A DNA stretch of 64,000 nt from Onthophagus taurus. Taxonomy: Eukaryota; Arthropoda; Insecta; Coleoptera; Scarabaeidae. Both the position numbers and the translations under genes were made by a program. The notes under the pieces were generated by a model, which saw nothing but the letters and a program-made list of their open reading frames with translations, ran no database searches and had not been told where the DNA came from. Positions 30,878 through 56,300 of the stretch are shown here, piece after piece (positions within the stretch are counted from its first letter, which is position 1; the number at the start of each line of letters is the position of its first letter). The DNA lies in assembly GCF_036711975.1 (NCBI RefSeq), contig NC_091973.1:7812001-7876000 (forward strand). Reading direction: 5' to 3'.

Positions 30878-31179
30878 ATATAATTGAAATAAAACTATGT
30901 GTATTTATAGATGGATGGTTTTTTTAATATTCAGCTCTACCGGTTTCGATCGTTACATTCAATCATCCTCAGGAGCAACGTCATTAAACATATTTTTAAA
31001 AAACAAATTTGTTTGTTATTTAAGCTGTTATCTTCTTAATCTTGATTACTTAATAAACAAGGTAACAAAGAAAAGAAGAATTAAGTGAGGATGATTGAAT
31101 GTAACGATCGAAACCGGTAGAGCTGAATATTAAAAAAACCATCCATCTATAAATACACATAGTTTTAGTTCAATTATAT
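30878..31179. mobile_element. Small fold-back element with 94-bp arms
   Basis: Nearly perfect inverted arms at 30878-30971 and 31086-31179, each about 94 bp, separated by a 114-bp AT-rich loop. Arms contain ACTATGTGTATTTATAGATG and CAGCTCTACCGGTTTCGATC. No coding sequence is present. The left arm, read on the minus strand, carries a hammerhead-like motif; the right arm has lost a core base. A target duplication was not identified. Confidence 0.85.
30934..30976 (-). ncRNA. Hammerhead-ribozyme-like motif 1
   Basis: Read on the minus strand from 30976: GCUC (stem I), CUGAGGA, one U, GAUUG..CGAUC (stem II), GAAA, the palindrome ACCGGU, then GUA and GAGC closing stem I. This is the hammerhead order CUGANGA / stem II / GAAA / NUH. 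The tiny palindromic stem III fits hammerheads that act as dimers. One extra U lies between CUGANGA and stem II. Activity is untested; the fold was judged by eye. Confidence 0.5.
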
Positions 31180-31511
31180 TAAAATTGAGATGGAAAGAAA
31201 TAACCAAATAAATATTTATAATATATATCTTATAAGTTGTTTTAAATCTTTTAGTGGTAAACTTCTACAAAATTCCGCCATTATAATATTATTATTACGA
31301 ACCACCGTTCTACAGGATAGAATAGCAAACTTTTTTGTTCATATATATATTTTTTTGTTACAGTGCGATGAAGTGTATGAAAAGTGCCAAAAAATCTGAT
31401 TTTGTTGAGTTGTTTTAGGGTGTATCAAAATAACGGAGGATCCGATTAATACAATGAATATCTCAAAATGCAAAAAGAAGTATACTATGCAAAATAAAAA
31501 ATCGTTACTAT

Positions 31512-31758
31512 TTAAACTAAAACTAGAACTAACACTAGCACTATCACAAGAACTAACACTAGACTTAGAACTAGAATCTTTCGGGTTAAGCCGTGCGTTT
31601 TTTGAAAAAATGTTTGACGTTTCGGATGCCATGTTGCAACCTTCTTCAGAAACAAGTTCGAACTTGTTTCTGAAGGTCTAGTGTTAGTTCTTGTGATAGT
31701 GCTAATGTTAGTTCTAGTTTTAGTTTAATTAATATCGGCCGTGAAAGCCTTCGTACTT
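31512..31758. mobile_element. 247-bp fold-back insertion with 13-bp target duplication
   Basis: Flanked by AAATCGTTACTAT at 31499-31511 and 31759-31771. The related segment at 28336-28400 lacks the insertion, giving an empty site for comparison. Inverted arms of about 52 bp (31512-31563 and 31677-31728) are built of ACTAGAACTAACACTAG-type units. Inside lie a perfect 32-bp palindrome (31644-31675, centre TTCGAA) and a hammerhead-like motif on the minus strand. No protein is encoded. Confidence 0.8.
31611..31656 (-). ncRNA. Hammerhead-ribozyme-like motif 2
   Basis: Read on the minus strand from 31656: UGUUU (stem I), CUGAAGA, one A, GGUUGC..GCAUCC (stem II with one mismatch), GAAA, palindrome ACGU, cleavage triplet GUC, then AAACA closing stem I with five pairs. 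GUC is the classic hammerhead cleavage triplet. It has the same layout as the motifs at 30934-30976 and 53597-53642, though the sequences differ outside the core. Confidence 0.5.
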
Positions 31759-31879
31759 AAATCGTTACTATGTTTTTTAATTTACGATTTTCCACATTTT
31801 TTGGGGTAATCTCGAAAATTGGACGCGATGGAGAAAAACTAAAAATAGTTTCATATTCTTCGAGATTTTTTTTGTAAAC

Positions 31880-33720
31880 TGTAGTATAATTAATGTAATT
31901 AAGTTAAAAAAATATAAAAAAATCGTTATGTATAAATAATTGAAACGATAAGACCTTGTTAGGATTTAGGGTAAATTTTGTTAAAGGAAAACAAGATGTA
32001 GAGGATAATGGGGATGGTCGTTTTGTAAAAACTTATAATTAAATGGTAGCGTCGAGGTTACAATGGACCCTCCAGACTCGGCCCAGATTGGCCATTTAAT
32101 ATTAATGCGAAACTGGGGTGGTTTTGGAGATGTTTGCTGGGCCCCCTTCCGACTCGACCACGTAACAGACCTTTAAATTGTTACGGTCGACGCGAACATA
32201 GCGGTGATGACCGCGACAAAAGAGAGCCATTTATCACGATTACAATCGAACTGAAAAATGATCGGCGAATTTACGTGGAAATTTGCACGACATCCACCCC
32301 CATAGGTAGTACGCATAAGATGGGAAGTTGGTGACTATTGGCGGAGCGCGGCAGCGTCTGTTATCCTTGCTTACATAATGAGACACTCAAGTTAGACGGG
32401 AGGAAGTCGAGTGTTCCTCACATTCAAATCGCTGTTACTCCCAGAAATGGATGTGCAACCACCCCCACCCTGACGCTCGCCTAAGAACGAAGGGAATCTA
32501 TCTGTACATCAGGGACGATAAAAAGTTCGCTTTCCGCTTTTTGTTTCTCATTCTAAGTTTTCGGATCAAATTTATGGCCGCCTTTTTGTCAATTTTATCC
32601 CAAAACCCCTCGCACGTATATTTTATTGTTAGTGTTTTCATTTTATCATCCCCGTATCCTTTTAAGTCCTTAGTGGGATTATAATTAGTGTTGAAAATTG
32701 AAACGTGGGAAGATGAAAGATAAACTGGTTGACCTTGGTCGATTCATCGGTATTAACACGTATAACCTGATGATCTGATGGGAATACTTGGGGCAGATCG
32801 TGTAGTTGTATGCAAAGGGGTACTCCGGGATACTTTACACAAAGTTCAAGTTGCCGCTATGTAAACTTACGTCAGTAAACTCCGACCGTGTACTCTGCGC
32901 CCGCTTTGGTCGAAAAGCGATACAATCAGGTGAGCTTGCTTAAGGGATGAAGTAGCTAAGTTTTGAGGTAAGACTGTTTATTAGCTAAATTAGGAGCAGG
33001 GCTTTTGAAAACATTCTCCCAGCCGACGGTGGGTTAACGTCGTTAAGTTAAATATGTTCGGGTCCACCCTCGACGAAATTAGTACCTGCCGGCGATTCCA
33101 AAGTTAAAAAAGAATTAACCTATCAGATAACTCATTCAAACTTGAGCCATCGCCATTAGCATATCAGACCGGAGCTGAATCTCCAACTTTTACAGCCTCT
33201 CCGCGGCCCGACTTGTAAATATGTCTCCTAGTTGCTACTGACGTTTAACAATTTAAGTTTTTTACGCCCCCCTTATCTCGCTCGGGTCGTTTTTTTTATT
33301 TATTTCACCCTCGCAAACAATCCTCCGCGGACTCACCGCGCTGCGACGTCTCCCGACAAACTCCCACGATTCCGACGACTCCGGGAAGGAAATAAGTTTG
33401 TATTGGTTTGAATTCGCTCAATACGTATTCAATTAAAAGTGGAGGGATACTCGACTTTTTAAGGGGAGTTTTACTTCGGAAGGGCTTGTTTTCAATGAAG
33501 TCGCTCTGTCGACAAGACCCTTTAGAAATCCTACAGATTAAACAACCTAGAACACAGGATTTCACTAATGCAACCTATACACCACTATACAAAATCCTTT
33601 AAACCTTTTTCTAAATCATTTGCGAACTTTCCACCGACAAACATTATCGATAAACGGAAAGATAGTAAGATAGCTCTACAACAAAAAATTTTTATAATAA
33701 TAATAATAACAAGCCTTTAC
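31880..33720. other. Higher-GC, apparently unique DNA without a recognised gene
   Basis: From about 32000 to 33560 the base composition is more even than in the neighbours and no transposon motif or tandem repeat is apparent. Short open frames exist on both strands (e.g. 32134-32334, 33305-33565), but none has recognisable motifs or convincing splice context. It may be intergenic or intronic host DNA, possibly regulatory. Confidence 0.4.
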
Positions 33721-33723
33721 TTA

Positions 33724-36700
33724 CAAGGGAAGTGTCACAACTGTGTCTCACCGATTTCGATGCAATTTGGTACAGTCATAGAATGGGCCAAAATAAGGTT
33801 CGCACATTTTTTTATACGTGCGGTAAAAGCCCCTGGGGCGAGTTATAGGGGTTGAAAGTTTGGAGAAAAAGTACGTTTTCACTTATATTTTGAAAACGAA
33901 AAGTGCTATCAAAATTTGGTAAATTGTAACTGATATTCATTTTAAAAGAGCTTTCTTTTGATGTGTCACACATATAGCAGAGGGTTAAAAAGGGCGAACT
34001 ACCCCTATTTTTTTGGAATTATTTAAAAACCACCCTATCGATTTTGGCGGCATTAAGTATACTTCTAGTGCGTTCAAAAATATTAGTTAAGGGTTTTTTC
34101 CCATTCGCCCTAGATCAACCCCAGCGAAGTTACGGGGGTTAACATGTAAGCACTTTTCGTAAGAATGATGTGATAAAATTGTCAGGTATTTTGAAAATAC
34201 TTTAAACAAAACCGTAAATTAGTCGCACAATAAAATGTTTAGTGTAAAATAAGGCATAATACACCATATAGGGGTTGTTGGGGTTATCCACCCCCTTAAA
34301 AATTAATTCTATCCCGGGCGTTATTTGTCGATTACGGCGAAATTTGGTACTGTGTTTGTTTTATATTTGAAGTAAAAATTTTTGAAAATGGTTATAAGGG
34401 TTACAAATTAGGGGTAGTTTTTTGTTTATACCTCGAAGATGAAAACTGCCATCGTAACTGTGGTATTGTTTTTTAAAAATCTATCTATCGATGTTCCACG
34501 AGGTAAACTACCCTCATTTTCTTTAAATAATAAATATAAAACTACTAGATAAATAAGATATTTTATTTATTTATGAGTTAAAAAGCAACTGACAAAAAAA
34601 ATAGTTCAATATACCAAAGAAGTTTATTCTACATTACTAATTGACGTTTTTTATGTATTATATTAATTTTCAATATTAAATTTATTTTTATTCTACGTAG
34701 TGTTGGCAAAAATGAAAGTCGTGGAAAAAATGTTTTAAACATAAGGATTTTTTACACCATGCACATGTTATGACCGCTATATCCCCACAGATATCACACG
34801 TTGGCTTCTCACTCGAAAAGCAAACTTCCACGGGATTTTCAAAATGGTCTGGTCTCTCCTCTATATAGCCACTTGCAAACCATGCGTATTTAAAAACATT
34901 TATAAACCGAGGGGAAGCCAACTGGTTATGCGTCAACGATTGCAATTTTAATATGTTATCCCTCTGATGTAAATTGACATCATACTGGTAAAGAATAATC
35001 TGATCAGAGAATCTTCTAATAAAATTTTTCCATATTCTGAAACCAAATACATCTAGGGGCTGTATTTGACCTGTTGTCCCTGCAGGTATAGATAAATGTT
35101 TAAAATTAGTACCTGATGGAGTTATTTCACTAATAACTTCAGGACAATGGCCACTCCAAGAATCTAATAATAATAATGATTTAGAACCAGTATTTGGAAA
35201 ATATACATTTTGGAGCCAATTTTTCATGTGTTCTGAAGTTAACTTTCCAGATTTTGATGCCAAAACGTATATATTGTCTGCTTTAAACATTGTATTTGCT
35301 ACCCTCGGTCCAAAGCTGCCAGAGGGTTCTTTTAAAACAATAAAAAGTGGAGAAAGAAGTTTCCCATCAGCAGATATTACGGGTTGAATTGTGTAACTGT
35401 GCGTTGTAGATGACACCGACTGGACCACACTTTCTACGGTTTTAACTCCTAAATCGCTTAATGTTCTTCCCGAATGGAATTCCAAGTTAAAACCGCTCTG
35501 ATCCGAATTGTAGGTGTTTTCAGGTCCATATATTTGGATTTGTAGCTTTGCCTCTTTAACGAAATCTTTTGCTAAAGTTTTTACTCGATCAACATTTCCA
35601 ATTTGTTTTTGGGATAGAAATTTTGGTATTTTTCGGCTTACTAACCGATTTGCTTTCTTAAAACGTTGCACCCAGCTATGAGATGCTTTGAACAGTTGAG
35701 GAGATAAATTCTTTTCATTTCTAGCTTGTATAGCCCATCTGCGTATATCAATATCATGTAGTGGCAATTTATTATCTACGGCGGCTCTCGCTTGATTAAT
35801 TACAAATTCGGTAATTTCTGCTAATTTTTCTTTGTATGTCCCTCTTTCTTCAATATATTTAGACCATCTGTGCAATTGGGTCTTTGACGTTACTTTTCGG
35901 TATTTGTTTTTTACGGTTTCTAGTTTCAAATAACCTTTCTTCCCACTTGTCCAGTAATTTACCGCCTCTAATTTGTACTCGTAGTCGATGTCATCCTTCA
36001 ATGGACAATGAGCATCAGTATCTTCTACAAACCTGTCAGTTGTATCCTGGTCTTCAATAATTTGCTGACCGTCATTGATGCCATTGGATGAATCGAAAAT
36101 TAATACAGTTTCGTCTTCAATTTGCATATTGTAGTCTTCCATACTTTCCATTAAAATACGCTGTATATTTTCTTTTAAACTAACTTCTGCTTCATTTACA
36201 GGAGTCTGGGGAATATTCATAACAGTAAAAACTGTCATTAGCAAATTTAAAACGTTTATTGGGTTTATTGTAACCATTGCTTCTGTCAGTTGCTCTGAAA
36301 CTAAAATCTACCCACTGGGCACACGTTCTTTTATACTAGAAAAAACTATTTTGAGAAATGACCTTTAGCAAGCGGCACTAAAAAAACAAATATTGTGCCA
36401 AAATTTTTTTGGTAGGTGTATTTTTGGCAACATTATGTAGAATAAAAATAAACTAATAAACTATATAAAACAAACACAGTACCAAATTTCGCCGTAATCA
36501 ACAAGTAATGCCCGGGATAGAATTAATTTTTAAGGGGGTGGTTAACCCCAACCACCCCTAAATGGTGTATTATGCCTTATTTTACATTAAACATTTTATT
36601 GTGCGACTAATTTACGGTTTTGTTAAAGTATTTTCAAAATACCTGACAATTTTATCACATCATTCTTACGAAAAGTGGTTACATGTTAACCCCCGTAACT

Positions 36701-37104
36701 TCGCTGGGGATGATCTAGAGCGAATGGGAAAAAACCCTTAACTAATATTTTTGAACGTGCTGGAAGTATACTTAATGCCGCCAAAATCGATAGGGTGGTT
36801 TTTAAATAATTCCAAAAAAATAGGGGTAGTTCGCCCTTCTTAACCCTCTGGTATATGTGTGATACATCAAAAGAAAGCTCTTTTAAAATGAATATCAGTT
36901 ACAATTTACCAAATTTTGATAGCACTTTTCATTTTTAAAATATAAGTGAAAACGTACTTTTTCTCCAAACTTTCAACCCCTATAACTTGCCCCAGGGGCT
37001 TTTACCGCACGTATAAAAAAATGTACGAACCTTATTTTGGCCCATTCTATGACTGTACCAAATTGCATCGAAATCGGTGAGACACAGTTGTGACACTTCC
37101 CTTG
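33724..37104 (-). mobile_element. Complete DNA transposon with ~640-bp terminal inverted repeats
   Basis: A 3,381-bp unit whose ends start CAAGGGAAGTGTCACAAC and run as inverted repeats for about 640 bp (33724-34365 and 36463-37104). The TIRs remain very similar along their length. The flanks are TTA on both sides (33721-33723, 37105-37107), suggesting a 3-bp target duplication. One intact transposase gene sits between the TIRs. Ends, target duplication and open frame are all present, so it may be recently active. Confidence 0.88.
34688..36277 (-). CDS. DD36D transposase, pogo/Tigger-related or a sister family
   Basis: Uninterrupted 529-codon frame. Residues about 99-215 look like a two-part helix-turn-helix DNA-binding region (YKLEAVNYW, then WAIQARNEKN and SWVQRFKKANRLVSRK), as in CENP-B/Tc5-type domains. 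The DDE core has Asp259 (YNSDQSGFN), Asp372 (LLLDSWSGHCPE) and Asp409 (GQIQPLDVFGF), with 36 residues between the last two. The C-terminus has a Cys/His cluster (Cys494, 497, 505, 508, 513, then His and Cys to 526), probably a zinc finger. The N-terminal ~95 residues are acidic. Pogo elements usually have short TIRs and TA duplications, whereas this one has long TIRs and TTA, so it could belong to another family with a DDE_1-like core. The first ATG is used; a later Met near 43 is possible. Confidence 0.8.
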   Translation of the reverse strand: MVTINPINVLNLLMTVFTVMNIPQTPVNEAEVSLKENIQRILMESMEDYNMQIEDETVLIFDSSNGINDGQQIIEDQDTTDRFVEDTDAHCPLKDDIDYEYKLEAVNYWTSGKKGYLKLETVKNKYRKVTSKTQLHRWSKYIEERGTYKEKLAEITEFVINQARAAVDNKLPLHDIDIRRWAIQARNEKNLSPQLFKASHSWVQRFKKANRLVSRKIPKFLSQKQIGNVDRVKTLAKDFVKEAKLQIQIYGPENTYNSDQSGFNLEFHSGRTLSDLGVKTVESVVQSVSSTTHSYTIQPVISADGKLLSPLFIVLKEPSGSFGPRVANTMFKADNIYVLASKSGKLTSEHMKNWLQNVYFPNTGSKSLLLLDSWSGHCPEVISEITPSGTNFKHLSIPAGTTGQIQPLDVFGFRIWKNFIRRFSDQIILYQYDVNLHQRDNILKLQSLTHNQLASPRFINVFKYAWFASGYIEERPDHFENPVEVCFSSEKPTCDICGDIAVITCAWCKKSLCLKHFFHDFHFCQHYVE

Positions 37105-37299
37105 TTAGATAATGTAGGTAGGAGACCAACTGGCGAAGTTTAGCCCAAGGCTATTTCGTACTTAACCAGTTACTCTCCCAAACAAAAGGAATAATAACAT
37201 GTCAAGCCTCTTCTATCAAATAAAAGTTTAACACTCTAAAGAAATAAAACACAATACACAATATTATTACTTATTCACATCTATGGATCATATCTCAGG

Positions 37300-37620
37300 A
37301 TGCTGGTTTGGATTTTTATGCATCTGTGGTGGAGGGTCTGGATGCTCGGTCTGCCTGTTGTGGCCTATTCTTTGACTTGTCTAGAGCGTTTGATACTCTA
37401 CATCACCAAATACTCTTCGAAAAATTGATATGGTATTTGAGGCCCAGCCTTAGAGTGGATTCAAAGTTATCTGTCTGGTAGGCAGCAGCTGGTAAAGTGG
37501 TCAAAGAATACTAGTACTGTCTATTCGTCTCTCCTCCCAGCGCAATATGGAGACCTTCAGGGGAGCATATTGTTGCTTTTCATTTTGTACATAAACGATG
37601 TCCCTTTATCTTGTATGGAC
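37300..37620 (+). mobile_element. Reverse-transcriptase fragment of a Jockey/CR1-like element
   Basis: Plus-strand frames read GLFFDLSRAFDTLHHQILFE, then IILLFILYINDVP-like text after shifts. These are the catalytic-aspartate and GSxLGPxLF regions of a non-LTR reverse transcriptase. Only about 300 bp survive. Confidence 0.65.
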
Positions 37621-39600
37621 CAAGGATCCTCGCTGCATTTACAACAGGGATCAAACTGCCTGCAATAACAATATTTGAGTTTTCGGAAAGAAACTCAAGA
37701 GCTTTCTTGTTACCAAAATATAGTATGGATGACTTGTCTGGATTGATTTGCAAACAATGCTGGTAAGAAATCAGAGCCACCAACTTCAAATCACATTTAA
37801 CCTTAATCATAGCTTCATCAAATTCAGACAATCTAAATTTAGAATAAATCTGATTGTCATCGGCATATGTTTGTCTACTTGATATCTGAGATATCTGTTG
37901 TGTAAATTGAAAACAACAACGGTCCCAGAATGGAACCTTGGGGAACGCCTGATTTTATTAAGATGGAAGGAGAAATATTATTATTATATTTAACAGATTG
38001 GGTTCTATATGACAAATACGACGTCATTTAAATCCACAATATTTTAGTTTTGCCAGGAGTAGCTCATGATTAATTTTATCAAATGCCTTGGAATAGTCCA
38101 AGAGCACAAGAACCCCACACATATCAGCATCACGAGCAGAAAAAAGATCCGTTATGACCCGTGCCAACACTGTCCCAGTGCTAAACCCGTTTCTAAAACC
38201 AGCCTGATTATCTGATAAGAGACTATTACGATCTACATATGCATTAAGTTGATTATATAATACTTTTTCAAACATTTTCGAAACAAGAGGAAGGATACTA
38301 ATTATACGCAATGCAGTATCGCGTATTGCAATACCAATACTGTGATATTGGTTGCATACTTGCAATGATGACGTCGGGTACGATAATTAATTAACACACT
38401 GTACTGCTGTTGGATACAGCAATTAATAATGTGTGATATATTTATCAATAAATGAGCTACACAATTTTAACATTTTCACTGTGATACCATCATGACCACA
38501 TGATGATGAATTAAATTGTGCCAATTGGTCAGATATTAAATCAGCCGGTAAAGTACCAGAACTCATCACCAAATCATCACAAGACACCAATATGGGATCA
38601 AGCAAGGCGCCCCCACTACCACACATTCTCATTGGCTCTGTAATAACCTGATGAAGATGATATGATGAGAAACACTCACTAAGCGGGTTACTAATATTCA
38701 AAAGATTAACGTTAAAGTCCCCTATAAAAATACACTCATCCGATATTCTTGTAGCATACGACATAAAATTATCAAAACCTTCTATTTGTTGATTAATATT
38801 AGTCTTATATCTATAAACTGAGGTCTGTCTCTGCGAATCAACCTGTATCCGGGAATGTCCACCACATTATTAGGAATGTCCTCTCTAAGCCACGTTTCAG
38901 TTACCATAAATATATCAAAGTTATTGTCTATAACTAAAGACACAAATTCATCAAATCCAGCAAGCAATGATCTAACATTTAAATGACCAATTTTCATGTT
39001 AGAAAAAGAAATGGCAAAATAAATAAAAATAACAATAAAAGAAACAAAAAGATAGAAATGCTATAAACTTATTATGCCATTAGGCAATTTCATCATGATG
39101 CAAGCATCCGAAGTCCAAAAATTTTCTTGTCCAAACTCTTCCTTGACCTCTCTGAGCAACTGCAATCTCCTCCTTGACAATGACTCATTAATAATGACCT
39201 TAGTCCCTTTTAAATTCTTTTTAAACTTCCAAATCTTATCCCTGAATCTGTAAGCTACAAACTTGACGATAACAGGACGATTGTAGCTTTTAGCATCACC
39301 TCCGTCATTCTTCTTTAGCTTCAATCGATAGCAGCCATCGATAATAGAACTGTCAATAACCAAATCTAGGATACGCAGTTGATTAATAATGCCAATCACC
39401 TTATTCTCAACATCCTCATCCCTACCTTCAGGAATTCCATGGAATACGAGGCAATTGCGCCTATTATAGTTATCCAAGTTTTCGAGATGATTAGTGATAT
39501 CTTTGCAAATTGTTATGTTTTCAAATGCCCAGATTACGAATATATTTATAAAAGTACTGAACTTAGCAGACCGGTGATGTGGAATTGTCATCACAAATCT
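37580..39600 (-). mobile_element. CR1/Jockey-like non-LTR element, decayed, ORF1 to reverse transcriptase
   Basis: In minus-strand order: an ORF1 piece (39061-39594) with NRRNCLVFHGIPEGRDEDVE and an RRM-like region; an endonuclease start MKIGHLNVRSLLAGFDEFVS and VTETWLRE (38782-38997); endonuclease end IFIGDFNVNLL (38423-38764); and reverse transcriptase with QAGFRNGFSTGTVLARVITD, LLDYSKAFDKINHELLLAKL (38024-38365) and LQINPDKSSILYFG (37580-37831). Internal deletions and frameshifts separate the pieces, and the YADD region seems lost. Confidence 0.8.
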
Positions 39601-39671
39601 ATGCCTCTATGAAAAAAATCATTGTGATCAAAGCAAAAATGGAGCACTTCTCTACTCCATAGAAAATTCAG

Positions 39672-40490
39672 ATGGTATTAGCTTACGGTGAAAGTCGTGA
39701 AAATTTCGCTGAGGTCCATCGCATTTATGTTCGAAAATTTCCTGGAGAAAGAGCGCCTTGTCCTAAAACTTTACATCAAATAGTTACAAAATTTCTGGAA
39801 TGTGGTAACGTGGAGGGAAAAAAACGAACACGTGCAAGATCGGTTACAAATGAACAGAATCAAATAGCTGTTTTAGCAGCTTAATCCTTATGTAAGTTTC
39901 CGTCAACTGTCAAAAGATTCAGCCATTTCGTTGACGAGTGTAGATCGGATTTTGAAACTTAATAAGTTTCATCCGTATCATGTCTCTCTACACCAACAAT
40001 TACAAAAACCTTAGTCAGTTAATATCCGGTGCGGCATTGTTTTCAATAAAATAATTGGACCTTTTTTTATTGATGGCAATTTGAATGGCAGAAAGTATCG
40101 GAATTTTTTGTTCAACGATTTACCGGTTTTGTTGGAAGACCTTACTCTGGAGCGAAGACTTGCGCTATGGTATCAGCATGATGGATGTCCATCTCATTAT
40201 GCTCTAGCCGCAAGAGAAGTTTTAGACGAAATGTTTCCTGAAAAATGGATAGGACGTAATGGACCGGTGAATTGGCCAGCTAGATCACTCGACTTAACTA
40301 CCCCGATTTCTTTCTTTGGAGTTACCTCAAAGAGAAAGTTTACAACCAGGTTCAAACAACACCAAACGATATGAAAAACCGTATGCGAATCAATAACTGA
40401 AGAAATGCTTGGCAATGTGCAGAGAACGTTTTCAATGAGAATTCAGAAATGTTTAGTAGATCCTGATTTTGAGGATTTAATCGATGTATA
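39672..40490 (+). mobile_element. Tc1/mariner-superfamily transposase remnant
   Basis: The start (39672-39884) reads EIQMVLAYGESRENFAEVHR and KTLHQIVTKFLECGNVE, a helix-turn-helix. The later part (40081-40374) has NGRKYRNFLFNDLPVLLED, WYQHDGCPSHYALAAREVL and WIGRNGPVNWPARSLDL, the second and third catalytic regions. Stops and a central deletion remove the first catalytic Asp. It is related to the copies near 44.8, 59.6 and 60.2 kb. Confidence 0.75.
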
Positions 40491-40679
40491 AAGGTAACTT
40501 TATAAATTCTACTCAATGTTCTAAGGTGATTTCAAAAATGAAGAAGAATTTTAGTACTATTTTACGATTAATGAAATCGTTTTTTTATTAATTAAATTTT
40601 TTTAAGTACACTTTTAACTGTGATGATAGAACCATTCACCTTAGCCCGAACTCTCCCATCACTGGTCGAACAATTCCCG

Positions 40680-41640
40680 GATCCATACTTTTCACGTAAA
40701 AATAACAGAAAACTGGAGATGGGAAGGAAAGGAGATCGAGGAAGTTAGGGAGTATACTTACTTGGGGTATGTGTTTAGGGAGGATAACAGGGAGGGGTCG
40801 CATGTGATAGCTATGACAAAAAAGGCGAATAAGGTGATGGGACAAGTATGGGGTTGGGGGAAGAGAGTCTTAGAAGGAATGTGGCAGCGAGGAAGATTAT
40901 GTTTGAAGGTCTGGTTAGCAGTGTGATTATGTATGGGGCAGAGGTATGGAGATGGAGGGAGCAGGGAATGCAGGAGGACGTGCAAGCTAGATATTGGAGA
41001 TGGGTGCTTGGGGTGGCGAGAGAAACACCGGGGTATATAGTGAGGGAAGAGGTAAAGGTGGATAAGGTCAGAGTGGAGGTCAGTGAAATATGAAAAAACT
41101 GCGGGATCTTTGGGGAGTGTTGGAGGGAAATTAGAGAGGAAAAGGTCAGATATGGGAAAGGAGACAGAGACAACTATTATAGACGAGCGGGTACTCGGTA
41201 ACTGAGATAAATAGTAGACGAAGGGTGGGTAGGGAGATGTGGAGGGAGTCGAGAGATAGGGACCGAGATGTGCAGAGACAGGAAAGAAGGACACAAATAA
41301 AAGAGGGAAGGTATAATGAAAGGTACAGGGACATTATTACGGAGGGGCTGCCTGGATACTTGTTATTGGAAGGAGATGAGGAAGGGAAAAAGTTGGTGGC
41401 TAGGTTCCGTTGTGGAAACGAGGAAAGAGCTAACAGATACTGGATGGCCGATGAGGAGAGGTGGTGTAGGCTGTGCAGGGAGGAATGGGAAACGTTGGAA
41501 CATATGTTGAATGGGTGCAGTGAGTTGAGGGAGGAGAAGATGGACCGATGGCAGATCTTAGGAGAGGGGGGAGAGGGGAAACGATGGATGAGAATGGTTG
41601 TGGGGGTGAGGAGACAAAGGAATGGATGAGGGGATGATTG
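40680..41640 (+). mobile_element. C-terminal part of a non-LTR reverse transcriptase, purine-rich
   Basis: Plus-strand frames give GLVSSVIMYGAEVWRWREQG, YWRWVLGVARETPGYIVREE (40848-41093) and later FRCGNEERANRYW and CRLCREEWETLEHMLNGC (41225-41629), the thumb and zinc-knuckle parts of a retroposon polymerase. The strand is strikingly rich in A and G. Catalytic palm motifs are absent and several stops occur. Confidence 0.68.
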
Positions 41641-41734
41641 GGCCGAGGAGTCGAGGGTGTGGAAATCGAGGAAGAGGGTAGAGGGTGAAAATAATATTTT
41701 AATAATGTAAAGAATTGTAGACAGATTGTTGTAT

Positions 41735-42640: not shown

Positions 42641-42692
42641 ATTATACAGATTGACGGTAACATAATAATATACAATAAACTCTTAATACTTT

Positions 42693-43185: not shown

Positions 43186-43189
43186 GAAA

Positions 43190-44840: not shown

Positions 44841-44842
44841 TA

Positions 44843-45165
44843 CAGGGTGATTCTCAACCTATACGCATAAACTTCGGGATTTCCTCCTCATGGCGAATAA
44901 TGACTAATAAGCGAAAAAAATTTCTGTTTCATAGATATCCGTGCTATTTACTTTCAAATCAAGAATACATAGAACATTTTAAAATAACATCACAGTAAGT
45001 GTTTAATTGGGCTCCCCAAATCCACAATCTTCCACTAGCACAGCCTAAACCAGGGTGTTGGCAGATTGTCTGGGCAGCAGCATGTACCTGATTTTGCAAT
45101 ATTTGCTCAGTATTAACTTCTATGGAGCACACTATGCTTTTTAAGTGACCCGAAAAGTCTTGACC
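44843..45165 (-). mobile_element. 3' end of a mariner-like element
   Basis: TA followed by CAGGGTGATTCTCAACC at 44841-44859, a terminal repeat like the CAGGGTGAGTCGGG end at 60070. Read from 45165 downwards the minus strand gives a degraded transposase C-terminus (NQVHAAAQTICQHPGL and following). The other end is missing. Confidence 0.5.
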
Positions 45166-45179
45166 TATCCATCGGGTGG

Positions 45180-45600
45180 TCGCGCTTATTATATGTGGTT
45201 GGGATTGGAACTGTTTTGGTATGGATTAGCTAGGCTTGATGTTGGTTGGAATTGCTTCTGATGTGGATGAGCAGGACACTTCTTACACTTCTTTCGATTT
45301 TATCTGGTTTCGATGTGTTCTAAATGTGTTCTAAATCAACTAGATTTAGATATGGATGGGTTCTGTATGGATACGGATGACTTAGGTTTTATTTGCGTGA
45401 TTTGGGTTGGGTCTGATTTGGGAAATAAGATTTAGTTGTGAATCAGATTGATTCTTTCGGTTTGGGTATGGATAAGATGGATACTTTTTGATTAATTGTT
45501 TTGGTATGGATTAGCTGCGTTTGATTTGGTTTGTAATTGCTTTTGATTTGAATGAGCAGGACTTATGGACTTATGGACTTAATGAGCATGGTTGTACTCG
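45180..45600. repeat. GT-rich tandem repeat, left block
   Basis: Long G/T-rich strings such as GGTTTGGGTATGGATAAGATGG recur here (shared 20-base core GTTTGGGTATGGATAAGATG) and again at 47230-47810. The unit is about 390 bp. The two blocks are separated by an R1-like fragment, as if it had inserted into one array. No gene. Confidence 0.65.
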
Positions 45601-47108
45601 TCAGAATCACTAAACAAATTAGAGATAAACTTCCTCAAAGAGGTGATGGGGATAAGAAGCCCGTACCCCAAGATACTGGTGGACAAAGGAAATAGGTAAA
45701 GCAAGAAGAGTATGTGTGATGAAGCGAAGAGTATTGCAAAGAAATAGAAAAAGCAACAAAAACCAGAGCAAATAGAACAACTACTTACGGATTACACACC
45801 AGCAAGAAAGTTCTTGAAGAGACTAATTAATGAATCCAAAGAGAAGAAGTGGAAAGAACCCTGTTTGGAGCTGGAGGAAAACATATGAGGAATAGCATAC
45901 CAGGTTGTTACCAAAACACTCGGGGTAAGAAAAAGAGAAGCAATGGATTACAAGACAGCAGAGGAACAATTCAAGAAACCGTTTCCACAAGTCGAGGAAG
46001 ATCAGGAGAGAGCACAACAACTGGAAGAGCAGGAGAAAGAACAACTTGCCAGCCCGTTTACCATCGAGGAATTAGAGCAGACCATCAAACAGCTTAAATT
46101 AAGATAATCTCCTGGAGAAGACAGAATTACAAATGAAATTCTGCAGGCCTGCGTAAAATCAAATGCTTAACAGTAGGAAATTTTCCTGACATTTGGAAAA
46201 AAGCGGTTCTAGTGCTGGTACCTAAACCCGCAAAACATAATCAAGAAAAATCATACAGACCTCTTTGTATGCTTAGCGCAGTGCACAAACTTCTTGAACG
46301 CCTGATTAATAACAGATTGGTAGCATTTAGAATAAAAAGCCATTAACAACAGAAGTACTGTAGATGCAGTAATGACTATAGTTAAAGAAGCAAGAGGAAG
46401 ACAAATAGTGTTATATGCCCGTGTTAAGGACCGAGTTTGGGAAAGAGAAGGATACTGGCAACGGTGATACAATCGGTCACACTGTATGCAGCATCGGTTT
46501 GGGAACTGGCACTTCGTCATATCGACGGAGGCGCTAACTGGATGTCACCCATATGACCTGCTGGTATGGAAGAAGGCAAGAAATTGGGAGAGGGGTTTCC
46601 AGAAAGAGAGGAGAACCATACCGAAATGCTTAAGAGATGGCAAAAAAGATGGCGAGTGTATACAGGGTGGGCCAGTACATTTGTTAGGGATGTCCGGGTA
46701 TGGACAGACTCTACGATGAATACCGAGTATTATGCAACGCAAGCCATAACTGGACACGGCACGTTCGATAGCTATCCCAGAAACATCCGGAAGATAGAAT
46801 CAGATCTCTGCTGGTTTGGGTGCAATGAATCCGATACACCGAGGCATACCGTCTTTGAATGTAGAAAATTTCAAGAATATAGGAGAATTGCGGAGGAAAG
46901 ACAATATCTCCGTTGTGATAATGAGTGGAAGGGAGAAAGGAGAGATAATTATGAACCTTCTACGATCCATAATGAGGAGCCACGACGAAAGTTTGGAGGT
47001 GAGAGCAATGAGGTCGCACACTCAGGTATGAATGAAATAGTTAATATGTTAAAAATTAATGGATTTCTATGTTTTGAGCTGGGATACCATCCAAGCCGAG
47101 TCGAATGA
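45600..47108 (+). mobile_element. R1-like non-LTR retrotransposon fragment inside the GT-rich repeat
   Basis: Plus-strand frames give SPFTIEELEQTIKQLKLR with SPGEDRITNEIL (46060-46140), the start of an R1-type reverse transcriptase, then degraded text. The C-terminal part (46566-47108) has WQKRWRVY, TQAITGHGTFDSY-like TGHG, and CWFGCNESDTPRHTVFECRK, the typical CCHC knuckle of R1 proteins. The polymerase core is deleted. Confidence 0.75.
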
Positions 47109-47229
47109 AGAAGAGGAGAACAGTAAAAGTATTCAACAACATTGAGGCCAGTAGGATTGTCTCAAACTCCCGATCGTATCAGTTGCAGGCGTCATATCCG
47201 ATTGGGGCTCAGTCATAAAGATTTTCTCC

Positions 47230-47810
47230 TCCTCTGTGCCAAAGTTGGGTCTGATTTGGGGGCTAACGTTTAGTTGTGGATCAGATTGGTTCTTTTCGAA
47301 TTGGGTATGGATAAGATGGGTTCATATAACGTGGGGCCTCGTTTCGATGTGGACGGACACTTTTTGGTTTGGTGTGGTTAGGGCTGAATTTAGTTTGATA
47401 TGGATGAGTTGGGTTTGGTTAGGTTAGTTTTTAGTAGGAGTCATTAATATTGAAAGATCTTCGTTATTGATTTGGACGATCGTGCTTATTTTACATGATT
47501 ATGGTTGGATCTGTTTTGGGTGTGGGTGAGCTGGACTTGATTACATTGGTTTCGGTTTGCTGATGATCAAATGATTTGATTTAGATGTGAATGGATTGTA
47601 TTTGAGTGTGGATGACTTAGGTTTTATTTGCATGATTTGGTTTAGGTCTCATTTGGGAGATAAAGTTTAGTTGTGGATCAGATTGGTTCTGTTCGGTCTG
47701 GGTATGGATAAGATGGGTACATATAAAGTGACTTGGGTTGGGCCTGGATTCGATGTGGATGAATACTTTTTGGTTTGGCATGGTTAAGGTTGAATCGATA
47801 CCATGTCCAT
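47230..47810. repeat. GT-rich tandem repeat, right block
   Basis: Two units about 390 bp apart (near 47240 and 47630) share TTTAGTTGTGGATCAGATTG and TGGGTATGGATAAGATGGGT. They match the left block at 45380-45480. No gene. Confidence 0.75.
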
Positions 47811-48354
47811 ACCTGGTGTTTTTAGTTTTTTATTGTTTTTTTAATTAGAAATCTTTTGGCAATAAACGCAAATTTTAAAAATCTGAATTGCTCAGCGAGC
47901 GAACGAGCTAGAAAAATAAAAATTGGTATAGATTCTCCTTGGATATCCTCAAATGGAGCGACATTATAGGGTGTTCAAAAATACAACTACATATTCGATT
48001 AGCTTATCAGATAGAGAATTTAATTCTCTACAAATCTTCTGTACATGTCCCTATACCTATCAGCTGCAGTTTTGATATCGCGGAATTAATCAAAACTGTT
48101 TATCTCCTTAATGTCATTTATGTACTTTGCCTCTTAGTGGGACATTCTGTTATGTTCATCAATATTGAGAACATCAAACATTGAGAAAATCTACTGTGAC
48201 TGTATGTAGTGTCATGTTCTTATCATTTCTGGAAATAGATTCCAATATTACTAGTTTTAAGAATATACATAACTTAAATTAATGGTTTGTGTGTAATGAA
48301 ATAAAACTAGATGTCATTAAATGGTGTTCCTTTACTATAATCTACTGTTGATAC
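47811..48354. other. AT-rich spacer, nothing recognised
   Basis: Contains only a short open frame (47939-48184) with no known motif, one end of which lies near a decayed repeat. I see no gene or mobile element. Confidence 0.4.
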
Positions 48355-48975
48355 TGCTTGCAGAAGACTACTTACGCTTATAAAAGAGTAGATACTGCCG
48401 AGGATAGACTAGATACTGCTGGCAGAAGACTATACTAGCAATGGAAGACTTGATACTGTTTACAGAAGACTACTTACCGCTTGAAGGGATAGATACTGAT
48501 GAGAAAAGACTAGATAATGTTGACATAAGTCTAGAATAGTCTAGATACTGGTAATGGAAGATTTAATAGTGCTTATAGAAGACTACTTACTGCTTGTATG
48601 AGTGGATATCGCTGAGAAAAGGTTAGATACTGCTGGCAGAAGACTAAAGACTGGAAATGGAAGACTTGATACTGCTTACAGAAGACTACTTACTGCTTGA
48701 AGGGGTAGATACTGATGAGAAAAGACTAGATAATGCTGACATAAGTCTAGAATAGTCTAGATACTGGTAACGGAAGACTTAATACTGCTTATAGAAGACT
48801 ACTTACTGCTTGTATGAGTAGATATCGCTGAGAAAAGCTTAGATACTGCTGGCAGATGACTAAAGACTGGAAATGGAAGGCTTGAGACTGCTTATAGAAG
48901 ACTACTTACTGCTTGATGGAATAGGTACTGCTAAAAAGGACTAGATACTGTTGGCAGAAAACTAAATACTAGTAA
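48355..48975. repeat. Higher-order tandem repeat (AGATACTGCTGGCAGAAGAC units)
   Basis: Short related motifs (AGAAGACTACTTACTGCTTG, AGATACTGCTGGCAGAAGAC, CTGATGAGAAAAGACTAGAT) alternate. The AAGACTACTTAC phrase recurs about every 95-120 bases, and pairs of these form a larger unit of about 220 bp that occurs at least twice with high similarity (for example 48480-48600 versus 48700-48815). No gene. Confidence 0.8.
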
Positions 48976-50289
48976 ATATTAATAGTTTTGAGTTTATTAA
49001 AAAGTTAGTTTTGTTTATGTAAATTTTTTGGATAATTAGAAGATGATTAGTTGGTTGGTGATATTTGAATCGTTCTTAAATGGATCATGATATACGTTAT
49101 ATTATCCTCCGATTGTACCCTACTAACAAATGACGTCAATTTGCATGTAGAGTAACCCGCAGCGATGTACAAGATATGCATTCATCGATTTCCACTGTCA
49201 TGGATGACATTAATACCGGATTCTCTCGTGGCAATTAACTATGGAAATGTGAGCCGGACGATGGTGTGTTCTTGAAAACAAATTGACAGAATGTTAATGA
49301 AAGTTTTGAAAAGGTTTGGGTGGATTAATAAATTTGAAAGTTGTCTATAGAACATTTTATTATTTACACATTGGTTTACATTGTATGTTACGCGATAAAT
49401 AATATAACATCTGGAGTATCTACACCGACATTATGTTAAAACTATAGTACAGTTCAAACGGAAGTTATACTTAAGTTAAGCTCATGGTTAAATACTTGAT
49501 ATTTAGTCGTACCTTAAGTTCCGTTCGCAACAAGAGGAAATTTAAAATACGATTATTTATTAAGAAATGCTACTAAAGTTTTCCCTAATACCCTGTTAGT
49601 GTTAAGGTAGCGAGACTTTTGTTTTCCTAAAGTACAAGCTGACTGCTAGGATAGAAATTTCCTTTTATTGCAAACTGTATTTACAGAGATTTTTTTCCAT
49701 TCATTTATATATGGACGCTACAAAAGCTACATTGAGTTGATATATTTTTTTTTCGTTATAATTTCGCTAGACCCCCGTTTTAAAAATATTAGCTCCCAGC
49801 CATTCGGTATATTTTTGCGATATTCAACGCAAAAAACATCAGTAATAAACTAGACAATTTCGGTTAGCTTGCTCAATTTATTTGAATGCGTGGGTTACGT
49901 ATCAGGTATTTCAAATGCAATTAAAATGAGAAATTGTATCTTCGTAAATATTTAACAATTATTTAGAAACATTATTATAGACGATATGTAAAATTTTAAC
50001 GACTCATTAATTTTTCCGGCTGCAAAATATTAAAATTACGGTTTCTATTTGGCACTCATTGCTCTAAAGCTCTTGTTGGTAAGCTTACAACGTTGGCTTG
50101 TTTGCTATTCATAAATTGAGCAAACTCTTCACGGTTTACATTAGTTTCTTTTTATTATTTAGGATACATGCATTTAGCTATGCTATTAGTACAATAGACC
50201 TAACCGTTCAGTCTTCGTTTAAATACATATAAACAATTGTACATTTATGCCTCTTTTAAAGCGCTCTCTCTCGTGTTCTCTTTTATAAT
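48976..50289. other. AT-rich DNA, 3' flank of the IgSF gene; no gene seen
   Basis: No open frame with a known motif and no clear repeat. As it lies downstream of the minus-strand gene ending at 50352, it is presumably intergenic. Confidence 0.4.
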
Positions 50290-50295
50290 TTTATT
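50290..50295 (-). terminator. Possible poly(A) signal of the IgSF gene
   Basis: AATAAA on the minus strand 57 bases past the TGA at 50352. Such hexamers are common in AT-rich DNA, so this is only consistent with the model. Confidence 0.35.
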
Positions 50296-50351
50296 CTTAA
50301 TATATACTTATTAGTTTACTACAGAATAACATATCCATTTTCCAAAACTGT

Positions 50352-53300
50352 TCACCGTAACTGAAGAACCAAGGAGGGCAGGAAACACAACGGCGAGATA
50401 ACGTAGAAAACCCCTGCAAATAATAAATAAAAACAAAATATAATAGTTATAACAATATAATTAATTAAAGTTTGACTGACAGCTAGCTGTAATCAACTAA
50501 AAGTACTTCCATTTGGGGCGCCTTTAGCAAAAATATCAGATAAGATTGTATCCCAATGGAAAGGGCACGTCAAAGACGGCAAAAGGGAAAAGAGCGCGTT
50601 GGAAAATAACTAAGGGTGGAACATCAAACGTGTCGGACATTCATATACACTCAATGGCGGTAATAGGAAATTGAGAAAATTCTATTTCCGACAAGTTCGG
50701 CCTCGGAGGGCCTTAGTATAATGTAGAGGGGGTTTTAACTTATTTAGACGAGTTGCCCACGTCGGGATTGCAAAAAAAAACACGAATTGTCGTACAAATT
50801 GAAATAAGAAGTGTTCGTAATTTGCAAGAACGATAGCACGGGACGCTCTCCTGTTAGAAGTGCGCTGAATTTTAAAGTGGATGACCTCCCGAAAGAGAAT
50901 ATTATATGTGTGCCAACAAGGGATGCAGACAATATCCTTTACACTGTACCGTTACATCTCATCGTATACCTGCACAGACATTTTATTCGAAGAATTTAAA
51001 TTACGACAAACATTTTCATTCAAAGAAACTTTAAATTTCAATTCAATTTACGATAGTTTACTACAGCATACCGTTAATTTAAAATCGATATATTTGCATT
51101 ATTCATCACGTATTTATTTATTTAGCGATACCGCGAACCCGTCGCCCCGGTATTATATATGATTAATTGTGCGGCAGCCTTTAATGGCTAAACTAGAGAC
51201 TTTTTGACTTTATTGTCCATAAACGGTTCGAAATGTACCGCTTGCTATCGATCGTACTATCACGCGCCCCATTCATATGCAACAAGCGTCAATGCGTATG
51301 ATATCGGTACATTGTTCCCTGTTTATAAACAATACCCTCTCATGACATCACATTATCGACGTATACCGCTTGCATAATTCGGTTTACACTCTTTGTTTTT
51401 ACTTGTAACTATCATCATACTTCACCACGCAAATATCTCCCATGCTAATATTTTATTTTATACACGAACATTAAAAAATTTTTTTTAATTAATTTCATTA
51501 TTTCTAAACAAAATCAGAAAAGAAAGGGGTGAATGAATGAATTAATTTCGCCTGATTAAGCTTTTCAATTAACATAATAAATATTTTGAAAAAACATATT
51601 GCGTCTAATGGGATATTAATTACAGTCAGTATACAAACATACAGTCGATATGATTTTTTGAAAATTTCTTCTTTAATAATTTTTTTCTGGAAATTTCAAT
51701 AATATTATCTTCTAGTTTTTATATCATATTATAAACTAGAATCTTTAAGCTTCAATTTAACATATATATCATATCATGATTCTTAAAAATACACTCGATG
51801 TGATTTTTTGAAAATTTCGGGTTATTTTTAGATTTATAAATTTCACAATTTCTGCTTTAATGATTTTTACCTGGAAATTTCAATACAATTACGATATAGT
51901 TTTTATATCATTTCATAAACTACAAACTTTAAGCTTCCATTTAACATACACATCATATCATGATTCTTAAAAATACACTCGATACGATTTTTAAATTGTT
52001 ATATATTCGTCTTTAATAATATTTTCCTGGAAATTTCAATAATATTACCTTATAGTTTTTGTATCATTTCATAAACTAGAATGTTTAATCTTCAATTTAA
52101 CATACAAATCATATTATGATTCTTAGAAATACGCTCGATATGATTTCTTGAAAATTTCGGGTTTTTTCACATTTTCTAAATTTTACAATTTCATTTTTAA
52201 TCATTTTTTCCTGGAAATTTCAATAATATTATCTCATATTTTGTATATCATTTCATAAACTAGAATCTTTAAGCTTTAATTTCACATACACATCATATCA
52301 TGATTCTTAAAAATACACTCGATATGATTTTTTGAAAATTTCCGGTTATTTTTAGATTTATAAATTTTACAATTTCTTCTTTAATAATTTTTTCATGAAT
52401 ATTTCAATAATATTACCTTATAGTTTTTATATCATATCATAAACTAGATTGTTTAAGCTTCAATTTAACATACACCTCATATCATGATTCTTAAAAATAC
52501 AGTTGATATGATTTTTTGAAAATCTCGCGTTATTTCTGATTTATAAATGTTACATACTCTTCTTTAATATTTTTTTTCTAGAAATTTCAATAATATTACC
52601 TTATACTTTTTATATCATATCATAAACTAGAATCTTTAAGCTTCAATTTAACATACGTATCATATCATGATTCTTAAAAATATAGACGAAATGAGTTTTT
52701 AAAAATTTCGTATTATTTTTGACTTATAAATTAGTCAATTTTATCATTAATAATTTTTTTCTGAAAATTTCAATAATATTATCTTATAGTTTTTAAATCA
52801 TTTCATAAACTAGAGTATTTAAGCTTCAATTTAACGTACACATCATATCATGATTCTTAAAAATACAGTTGATATGATTTTTTGAAAATCTCGCGTTATT
52901 TCTGATTTATAAATGTTACATACTCTTCTTTAATATCTTTTTTCTGGAAATTTCAATAATATTACCTTATAGTTTTTATATCATATCATAAACTAGAATC
53001 CCTAAGCTTCAATTTAACATACCCATCATATCATGATTCTTAAAAATACACTCGATATGATTTTTTGAAAATTTCCGGTTATTTTTAGATTTATAAATTT
53101 TACAATTTCTTCTTTAATAATTTTTTCATGAATATTTCAATAATATTACCTTATAGTTTTTATATCATATCATAAACTAGAATATTTAAGCTTCAATTTA
53201 ACATACATATCATATCATGATTCTTAAAAATACAGTCGATATGATTTTTTAAGAATTTTCCGTTATTTTGGATTTATAAATGTTACAATTTCATCTTTAA

Positions 53301-56300
53301 TCATTTTTTCCTGGAAATTTCAATAATATTATCTCATAGTTTTTTTTATCATTTAATAAACTAGATTTTTTAAGCTTCAATTTAACACACACATCATATC
53401 ATCATTCTTAAAAATACACTCGATACGATTTTCAAATCGTTACATATTCTTCTTTAATAATATTTTCCTCCAAATTTCAATAATACTACCTTATAGTTTT
53501 TATATAATTTCATAAACTAGAATCTTTAAGTGCGAAGGTAATTAAATTTAATATTCTTAGTATTGTACTTTTGAAACTGGTTTTATTATTTATTTAATTA
53601 AGTCTTACTAGTTTCGGCCCATGGCCATCTTCAGAGACTAATGTCATAAGAGTTAACTAAGATGTCATATTGCAAAGTATTAAGTGTAATTGTAAATATT
53701 TTAAATAAAATTACTTTGAGGTTACGACAAACAACAGATCGACACGTTAAAAAGAACGTTCTGTTTCAAACCAGTTTCAAAAGTACAATACCAAGAATAT
53801 ACTGGATATGATTTTTTGAAAATTTCGGAATTCTTTAGATATATAAATTTTACAATTTTTTCTTTAATATTTTTTCCTGGAAATTTCAATAATATTATGT
53901 TATAGTTTTTATATCATTTCATAAACTGGAATCTTTAAGCTTCAATTTAACATACACATCATATCATGATTCTTAAAAATACACTCGATATGATTTTTTG
54001 AAAATTTCGGGTTTTTTCACATTTATAAATTTTACAATTTCATTTTTAATCATTTTTTCCAGGAAATTTCAATAATATTATCTCATATTTTGTATACCAT
54101 TTCATAAACTAGAATCTTTAAGCTTTAATTTAACATACACATCATATCATGATTCTTAAAAATACACTCGATATGATTTTTTGAAAATTTCCGTTTATTT
54201 TTAGATTTATAAATTTTACAATTTCTTCTTTAACAATTTTTTCATGAATAGAAATATTCTTGAAAAAATTATAAAATAAATAAAAAATTATATTTATTAT
54301 TGAAAAATAATATTATCTTATAGTTTTTATATCATATCATAAACTAGATTGTTTAAGCTTCAATTTAACATACACATCATATCATGATTTTTTAAAATAC
54401 AGTCGATATGATTTTTTTAGAATTTCCCGTTATTTTGGATTTAAAAATGTTACAATTTCTTCTTTAATAATTTTTCTTTGGAAATTTCAATAATATTATC
54501 TTATACTTTTTATATCATATCATAAACTAGAATCTTTAAGCTTCAATTTGACATACGTATCATATCATGATTCTTAAAAATATAGACGAAATGATTTTTT
54601 GAAAATTTCGTATTATTTTTGATTTATAAATTAGTTAATTTTATCATTAAAAATTTTTTTCTGAAAATTTCAATAACATTGTCTTACAGTTTCTATATCA
54701 TATCATAAACTAGAGTCTTCAAGGTTCAATTTAGCATACATATATCATAACTCATACAAATACACTTGATATGATTTTTTAGAAATTTAGTTTTATTTCT
54801 GATTATAAAATTAACAATTTCTACTTTAATAATGTTTATCTTGAAATTTCCATAATTTTATCTTATTGTTTCTATATTATATCATAAACTAGAATCTTTA
54901 AGCTTCAATTTAACATACACATCATATCATGATTTTTAAAAATACAGTCGATATGATTTTTTGAGAATTTCCTGTTATTTTGGATTTATAAATGTTACAA
55001 TTTCTTCTTTAATAATTTTTTCCTGGAAATTTCAATAATATTATCTGATAGTTTTTATATCATTTCATAAACTAAAATCTTTAAGCTTCAATTTAACATA
55101 CACATCATATCATGATTCTTAAAAATACGCTCGATAAGATTTTTTGAAAATTTTGGGTTATTTTTAAATTTATAAATTTTACAATTTCTTCTTTAATAAT
55201 TTCTTCCTGGAAATTTCAATAATATTAGGTACCTTCTACTTTTTATATCATTTCATAAACTAGAATCTTTATCTTCAATTTGATATATATATATCATATC
55301 ATGATTCTTAAAAATACGCTCGATATGATTTCTTGAAAATTTCGGGTTTTTACATTTATAAATTTTACAATTTCATCTTTAATCATTCTTTCGTGGAAAT
55401 TTCAATAATATTATCTTATAGTTTTTATGTCACTTCATAAAATAGAGCTTTAATTTAACATACATATCATATTAAGATTCTCAAAAATACAATCGATACG
55501 ATTTTTTAAAAATTCCGCGTTATTTTTGATTTACAAATTTGACAATTTCTTCTTTAATCATTTTTTCCTGGATATTTCAATAATATTGCCTTATAGTTTT
55601 TATATCATATCATTAACTAGAATCTTTAAGCTTCAATTTAACAAACATATCATATCGAAATTCTTAAAAATACGATTGATATGTTTTTTGAAAATTTCGC
55701 TTTATTTTTGATTAATAAGTTTAACAATTTCTTCTTTAATCATGTTTTTCTGGAAATTTCAATAATATGATATTATAGTTTTTATATTATATCATAAACT
55801 AGAATCTTTAAGCTTTAATTTAACATACATATCATATCAAAATTCTCAAAAATACAGTAGATACGATTTTTTAAAAATTCCGCGTTATTTTTGATTTACA
55901 AATTTGACAATTTCTTCTTTAATCATTTTTTCCTGGATATTTCAATAATATTGCCTTATAGTTTTTATATCATATCATTAACTAGAATCTTTAAGCTTTA
56001 ATTTAACATACATATCATATCGAAATTCTTAAAAATACGGTTGATATGTTTTTTGAAAATTTCGCTTTATTTTTGATTAATAAGTTTAACAATTTCTTCT
56101 TTAATCATGTTTTTCTGGAAATTTCAATATTATGATATTATAGTTTTTATATCATATCATAAACTAGAATCTTTAAGCTTCAATTTAACATACATATCAT
56201 ATCGAAATTCTTAAAAATACGGTTGATATGTTTTTTTGAACACTGTGCTATATTTTTGATTAATAAGTTTGACAATTTTTTCTTTAATCATGTTTTTCTG

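Follow-up and report, generated by a model that had tools for sequence, protein, structure and literature searches.

The window analysed here, a 64,000-nucleotide stretch of the Onthophagus taurus genome, carries a vitellogenin gene on the minus strand (699–6055; Vitellogenin_N, open beta-sheet, and VWD) and, about 5 kb from it, a second vitellogenin-like fragment on the plus strand (11377–12372). It also carries XPA, a serine carboxypeptidase S28 gene, and a 539-aa open frame with Tc5-type transposase domains (34688–36307, minus strand). A satellite array with a unit of about 183 bp, in up to 22 diverged copies, occupies 51515–55998 and is the host of one of the three small fold-back elements described below.

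Three hammerhead-like motifs lie on the minus strand, each within a separate small fold-back. The earlier note had placed them from the letters; a model built from the three window motifs plus other copies (R1) finds them at the same places, and inverted arms are present around all three. They share one layout (stem I, CUGARGA, a one-base insert, stem II, GAAA, a palindrome of 4–6 nt, and GUH), and their families are named here by the position of C3 (B, 30972; C, 31649; A, 53634). Hammerhead B (30930–30980, minus; 62.6 bits with R1) consists of stem I GCUC/GAGC, CUGAGGA, an inserted U, stem II GAUUG/CGAUC, GAA, and the palindrome ACCGGU; the predicted cut follows GUA and is expected between 30938 and 30937. 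Hammerhead C (31608–31657, minus; 50.1 bits) has stem I UGUUU/AAACA, CUGAAGA, an inserted A, stem II GGUUGC/GCAUCC (with one U.U), and the palindrome ACGU, and would be cut after GUC. Hammerhead A (53598–53642, minus; 58.5 bits) has stem I AGUCU/AGACU, CUGAAGA, an inserted U, stem II GGCC/GGCC, and the palindrome ACUAGU, with a predicted cut after GUA. The palindrome starts with A15.1 and ends with U16.1, and H17 is A, C, and A in B, C, and A, respectively.

A second model (R2) was built only from 21 copies of families other than those of the window motifs, hand-picked from the list for the U-insert pattern described below, an alignment that leans towards good pairing (the unselected count is that of the 95 lettered places of that list). 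R2 matches 53607–53634 (E 2.5e-6) and 30939–30972 (E 3.9e-6), with no match at 31608–31657. A structural descriptor (CUGANGA, a 1-nt insert, at least four stem II pairs, GAAA, a 4–6-nt palindrome ending in U, H, and at least 4/5 of stem I) has three matches in the window, against 0.013 expected from the two found in all across 150 first-order Markov windows; a stricter first scan caught two of the three motifs, because stem II of hammerhead C has one U.U mismatch. The Rfam hammerhead models, which had been suggested as a check, do not call the three window copies. A scan of the whole window at the gathering score gave no hammerhead match; with lax thresholds on short stretches, RF00008 aligned at 53606–53643 with 16.1 of the 48.5 bits required (E 0.87), and no hammerhead was reported at motifs B and C. 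A search of the whole genome with RF00008 matched nothing, and 14 controls were equally silent. Element B also gives Rfam matches of miRNA type, for which its long inverted arms seem to be the sole cause.

The elements themselves are given without strand. Element B (30878–31210; scored as locus L031) is made of two inverted pseudo-LTR arms (30878–30971 and 31086–31179, 99% identical); its left end (30878) lacks a tail, and its right end carries one, from 31180 to 31210 or a few bases further. A 10-bp flank repeat, TTTATAATAT, is offset from both ends, so the target duplication of this element is unsure. Its other arm holds a damaged fourth copy on the plus strand (31081–31127), absent from the earlier note, in which C3 and most of stem I are gone at the arm junction (R1, 39.0 bits with stem I unpaired; R2, 25.8 bits).

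Element C (31512–31758; locus L050) is flanked by a 13-bp target-site duplication, AAATCGTTACTAT, at 31499–31511 and 31759–31771. It has a tail at the right end only, arms that are 94% identical (31503–31564 and 31676–31737), and a palindrome at its centre. An open reading frame on the minus strand (31512–31632), beginning MASETSNIFSKNARLN, has its ATG at 31632–31630, inside hammerhead C, and runs through the arm. Element A (53536–53800; locus L070), inserted in the satellite array, has arms of merely 33 nt (53551–53583 and 53768–53800, 97%); its left end lies at the no-tail site, and its right arm stops short of that site and has no tail. Each element holds one intact ribozyme, any second copy being in the other arm in opposite, outward orientation, and many copies of all three families exist elsewhere in the genome.

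The 291-Mb assembly was searched with the pattern CTGARGATGN{6,16}CGAAACNNGT, which specifies no more than the core and the inserted U, the opening pair of stem II, and the A-C...G-U frame within stem III; it occurs at 2122 places, and the reversed pattern at one. Copies with an inserted A, C, or G instead of U number 168. A pattern with stem II directly after A9 gave 11 places, a count that covers only copies whose stem II begins with G, and at least five of these also match the pattern with inserted A, C, or G. The insert after A9, mostly U, is the rule among the forms searched: the one extra base that had been noticed after CUGANGA is present in all three window motifs and in nearly every genome copy found. 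The inserted U (2122 places, compared with 11 for the insert-free form) is possibly under-described so far. A core pattern for family A occurs at 206 places, with none for its reversed control.

Pairing was assessed on the U-insert places listed (100, all on contig C1), of which 95 were printed with letters, 73 of them distinct. Stem II pairs 2, 3, and 4 are standard in 91, 93, and 85% of the 95, against 50, 51, and 39% after shuffling; genome copies are kin, so these counts are not independent events, and many pair types occur nonetheless. For stem I, 97 of 104 pairs form, against 79 shuffled. An alignment of 11 sequences with flanks from five families A–E (D taken from L046, E from L082 and L093) gives a covariation score of 0.512, compared with 0.294 for shuffles and at most 0.183 for slid partners; of the five measures of covariation, the count of pair types is not above shuffles in this alignment. 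The covariation proposed earlier from three motifs thus extends to the genomic relatives, where stems I and II around the CUGANGA...GAAA core pair in excess of shuffles, as in the small hammerheads of Penelope-like elements (PLEs). The elements might instead be MITEs or DNA transposons of the fold-back kind, with a chance likeness to hammerheads, as inverted repeats with target duplications would allow; this is very improbable, given covariation over many differing stem II sequences, the 2122-to-1 ratio of pattern to reversed pattern, the presence of the same motifs next to PLE reading frames, and two ends that differ by the PLE tail.

The link to PLEs suggested in the earlier note is borne out by related motifs that flank RT/GIY-YIG frames, open ones included. 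Family A copies in two loci (L013 and L014) flank pieces of PLE frames with RVT_1 (E 1.3e-4) and GIY-YIG (E 4.6e-4) matches that score under the Pfam cut-offs (22.1 versus 29.6 and 20.9 versus 22.6, respectively). At L090, a related piece downstream of a family A hammerhead reaches RVT_1 at E 2.7e-12, and a search with this RT piece gave 13 open frames longer than 800 aa among the 150 matches listed of 1852 candidates. At L093, which covers two of the listed RT matches, a truncated PLE copy open for 692 aa is followed by the beginning of another, whose frame is open for 846 aa. About 90 nt ahead of this 846-aa PLE frame is a family E hammerhead, with an inverted hammerhead of the same family on the other side. 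In families A and E, then, the hammerhead is found in a PLE pseudo-LTR beside an RT/GIY-YIG frame. Among the matches listed, 195 hammerheads (100 with inserted A, C, or G and 95 with inserted U) were compared with 99 RT places on contigs C1, C2, C3, C5, C6, and C7: seven of the RT places have a hammerhead within 3 kb, against 0.48 after random shifts.

None of 46 family B tail matches lies, by eye, within 3 kb of an RT match among the 150 listed of 1852. The family C ribozyme overlaps the start of an open frame, and an N-terminus like that of the family C frame has at least 150 genome matches; of those listed, one is in an open frame of 468 aa (C2:30076752) and most are in frames of 50–130 aa. 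A locus considered as the RT partner of family C (L058) was rejected: its element C has its own target duplication, and the PLE-like pieces nearby look by eye like a separate decayed copy. Families B and C are probably of PLE parentage too, judging from their ends, their tail, and their fold-back form.

Paired copies tend to face outward. The U-insert list contains 19 neighbour pairs within 5 kb, 14 of them of the same family by stem II sequence (judged by eye): 12 are minus-then-plus, that is, outward, one is plus-plus, one is minus-minus, and none is inward. Opposite-strand pairs of one family are therefore outward in 12 of 12 cases, and the three inward pairs in the list each join differing families. 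In the list of copies with inserted A, C, or G, all 10 opposite-strand pairs within 3 kb, of whatever family, are outward. Nine of 10 pairs within 5 kb among the family A core matches listed are outward and none is inward, those on C1 partly overlapping the U-insert set.

The two ends of an insertion are not equivalent. Among loci L001–L089, end words are readable on both sides in 39, and 38 of these have a tail on exactly one side; the other 50, window element A among them, were unscored for tail. When overlapping or duplicated loci are merged (L032/L036, L042/L044, L066–L069, L002/L072/L077, and L010/L011/L075/L080), one tail is found in 28 of 29 distinct loci (13 B, 11 C, and 5 A), and in the exception, L051, the left side shows a sequence close to the tail. 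From end word to end word, tail lengths are 31 nt for B, 30 for C, and 36 for A. The insertions in fact extend past the end words, by a few bases in B and by more in A, where the flank repeat begins about 9–20 nt past the last end word, so the family A tail is longer than 36 nt. This one-tail rule is possibly under-described so far. Because the flanks are AT-rich, flank repeats were judged against mismatched pairs: repeats of 9–15 bp occur in 21 of 27 loci, with repeats of at least 9 bp in 12 of 272 mismatched controls, and repeats of at least 12 bp in 15 of 27 loci, against 1 of 272; the modal length is 12 bp. Inverted arms, a tail on one of them, and a target-site duplication are thus combined, the exceptions in the window being element A (no tail) and element B (duplication unsure).

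Central junctions differ among copies. Ribozyme-to-ribozyme distances in family B are 163, 313, 264, 240, 395, and 344 at individual loci, and the family C junctions printed all differ, save those of the duplicated L066–L069. The latter belong to a group of at least 22 family C matches spread over about 1 Mb (C8:13.31–14.25 Mb); several share their flanks, suggesting that an insertion was multiplied by a large tandem duplication. Since junctions vary from copy to copy, each fold-back was probably made at its own insertion and is probably not itself the replicating unit.

The same PLE identity could be kept with a different origin for the fold-backs, namely self-priming on an antisense template or snap-back of the cDNA (Arkhipova et al. 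2013). Self-priming on antisense template is the route those authors favour for inverted PLE junctions, and head-to-head junction palindromes are common in PLEs (PMC3846280); element C likewise has its central palindrome. Varied ends or a copied tail would be expected from such events, whereas the second end here stops at a family-specific site inside the tail end (by 30, 31, and 36 nt in C, B, and A), and with the purified Anolis enzyme, cutting and extension take place on both strands (PMC11167929). That the no-tail end keeps a fixed position speaks, short of proof, for two independent starts, and we regard self-priming or snap-back as possible but unlikely.

The earlier note went further and proposed that these are non-autonomous elements moving through self-cleaving RNA, which the elements do not support. 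In a retrozyme cycle, transcripts of the fold-backs would self-cleave, circularise, and be reverse transcribed with PLE help; the three window cores are intact, copies are many, and PLEs/Terminons have been put forward in a review as likely helpers of animal retrozymes (PMC7761336). Such a cycle would, however, require two or more same-sense ribozymes bounding a unit, and the window elements have inverted arms and no same-sense ribozyme pair, so no unit RNA could be released from one element. When the element B transcript is folded, its ribozyme is buried: 41 of 47 bases pair with the other arm, and no pairs form inside the ribozyme region; the ribozyme fold survives in part within the transcripts of element C (12 bases paired within, 18 outside) and element A (8 within, 13 outside). 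The varying junctions, and ends that match PLE tail sites and target duplications, also speak against retrozymes, a reading we consider improbable. Elsewhere in the genome, six same-sense small hammerheads at exactly 468-bp spacing (C6:1655499–1657870, with an inverted one before them at C6:1654904) could release unit-length RNA; this is the sole array seen that could form a retrozyme-like unit, and it counts in favour of a retrozyme cycle.

The reading we prefer, with a probability of roughly 0.83, is that the motifs are hammerheads of three PLE families and that the fold-backs are short two-ended PLE insertions; they look like end products of PLE insertion. The pseudo-LTR would hold the PLE ribozyme, which would either overlap the start of the RT/GIY-YIG frame or lie shortly ahead of it, and a tandem PLE transcript would offer two same-sense ribozymes for double-hammerhead pairing. 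The target DNA would be cut on both strands, and each DNA end would prime reverse transcription from a site shortly past a ribozyme: one end from the distal tail site, the other from a site closer in by about 30 nt or more. The two cDNAs would end prematurely and be joined centrally, so that the product is a pair of inverted pseudo-LTR arms that face outward, with a target duplication on either side. Two-ended priming is suggested by analogy: PLE reverse transcription starts downstream of the hammerhead and the Anolis enzyme extends both strands, so the fold-backs may be read as two-ended target-primed insertions. Within the ORF of the Anolis PLE, the main RT start falls at 111–118 nt and the cut of the ribozyme at 26, a distance of 85–92 nt (PMC11167929); in element B, the short end lies 60 nt past the predicted cut and the tail end about 91 nt or slightly more. 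According to the Anolis study, the start site does not differ between the strands (PMC11167929); this alone does not predict one tail per pair. The motifs may be able to cleave.

The self-complementary stem III points to pairing between copies. Its two central bases are Watson-Crick complementary in 79 of the 95 listed places, against 36 shuffled, and since neighbouring bases have no way of pairing inside a single molecule, this points to pairing between molecules; the suggestion that such a stem III suits dimers thus gains support. With stem III cut down to a palindrome of 4–6 nt, as in PLE-type small hammerheads, a stable three-way fold should need two same-sense copies. Folding of single and dimeric RNAs, another of the checks proposed, gave a divided answer: the double hammerhead is favoured over two hammerhead monomers for A (−23.8 versus −16.8) and B (−22.9 versus −12.2) and not for C (−13.7 versus −15.4), and in all three the lowest-energy two-strand fold is another duplex (−28.1, −25.4, and −24.7). 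Double-hammerhead pairing between copies may occur. That the palindrome is a dimer-linkage signal, joining two PLE RNAs as a double hammerhead for two-ended priming, seems rather doubtful. Were it so, a PLE protein dimer would use the two ends of the cut target to prime one RNA each, outward-facing paired insertions with exactly one tail would be explained, and selection on the ribozyme would favour RNA pairing during insertion no less than cutting.

PLE hammerheads and inverted pseudo-LTRs are already published (PMC3846280, PMC7761336), and what PLE hammerheads do in vivo, in activity and in role, is termed a mystery in a 2020 review (PMC7761336). With its more than 2000 copies, its many open PLE frames, and its short, clean insertions, this genome provides statistics that bear on the matter: the palindrome stays self-complementary, and an insertion has two ends that are not equivalent. 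The Anolis element Poseidon resembles the families described here in that its ribozyme lies where the ORF starts, its tail is defined by two RT start sites, and its targets are AT-rich; it differs in being reported in tandem arrays and in a ribozyme that cuts only with protein present (PMC11167929). In vitro, insertion is normal for the Anolis ribozyme mutants, and public RNA-seq showed no RNA ends at the cut site (PMC11167929); with the protein-dependent cut, these findings count against the reading preferred here.

Animal retrozymes also contain type I hammerheads, some of which need dimers, but they are described as same-sense tandem repeats of about 150–300 bp that give circular RNA, whereas the window elements are inverted (PMC7229834, PMC7761336). 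PLE insertions of Adineta vaga share the inverted pseudo-LTR, the target duplication, and the head-to-head junction, and have an optional 31-bp tail on one of the two pseudo-LTRs, as here (PMC3846280). Unlike those insertions as described there, many copies here consist of two arms only, without a reading frame, and flank repeats have a modal length of 12 bp, compared with 8–10 bp or none in A. vaga (PMC3846280).

The closest counterparts are the minimal PLE hammerheads (Cervera & De la Pena 2014; Lunse, Weinberg & Breaker 2017), which have the same core and a near-absent helix III; they lie in PLE pseudo-LTRs, number thousands per animal genome, and are expected to act as dimers (PMC7761336). 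Set against the review passages that describe them, the copies found here stand apart in that nearly every one has a single inserted base, mostly U, between A9 and stem II. The ORF of the Anolis PLE begins at the start of stem II (PMC11167929), which, by analogy, hints at an insert there too.
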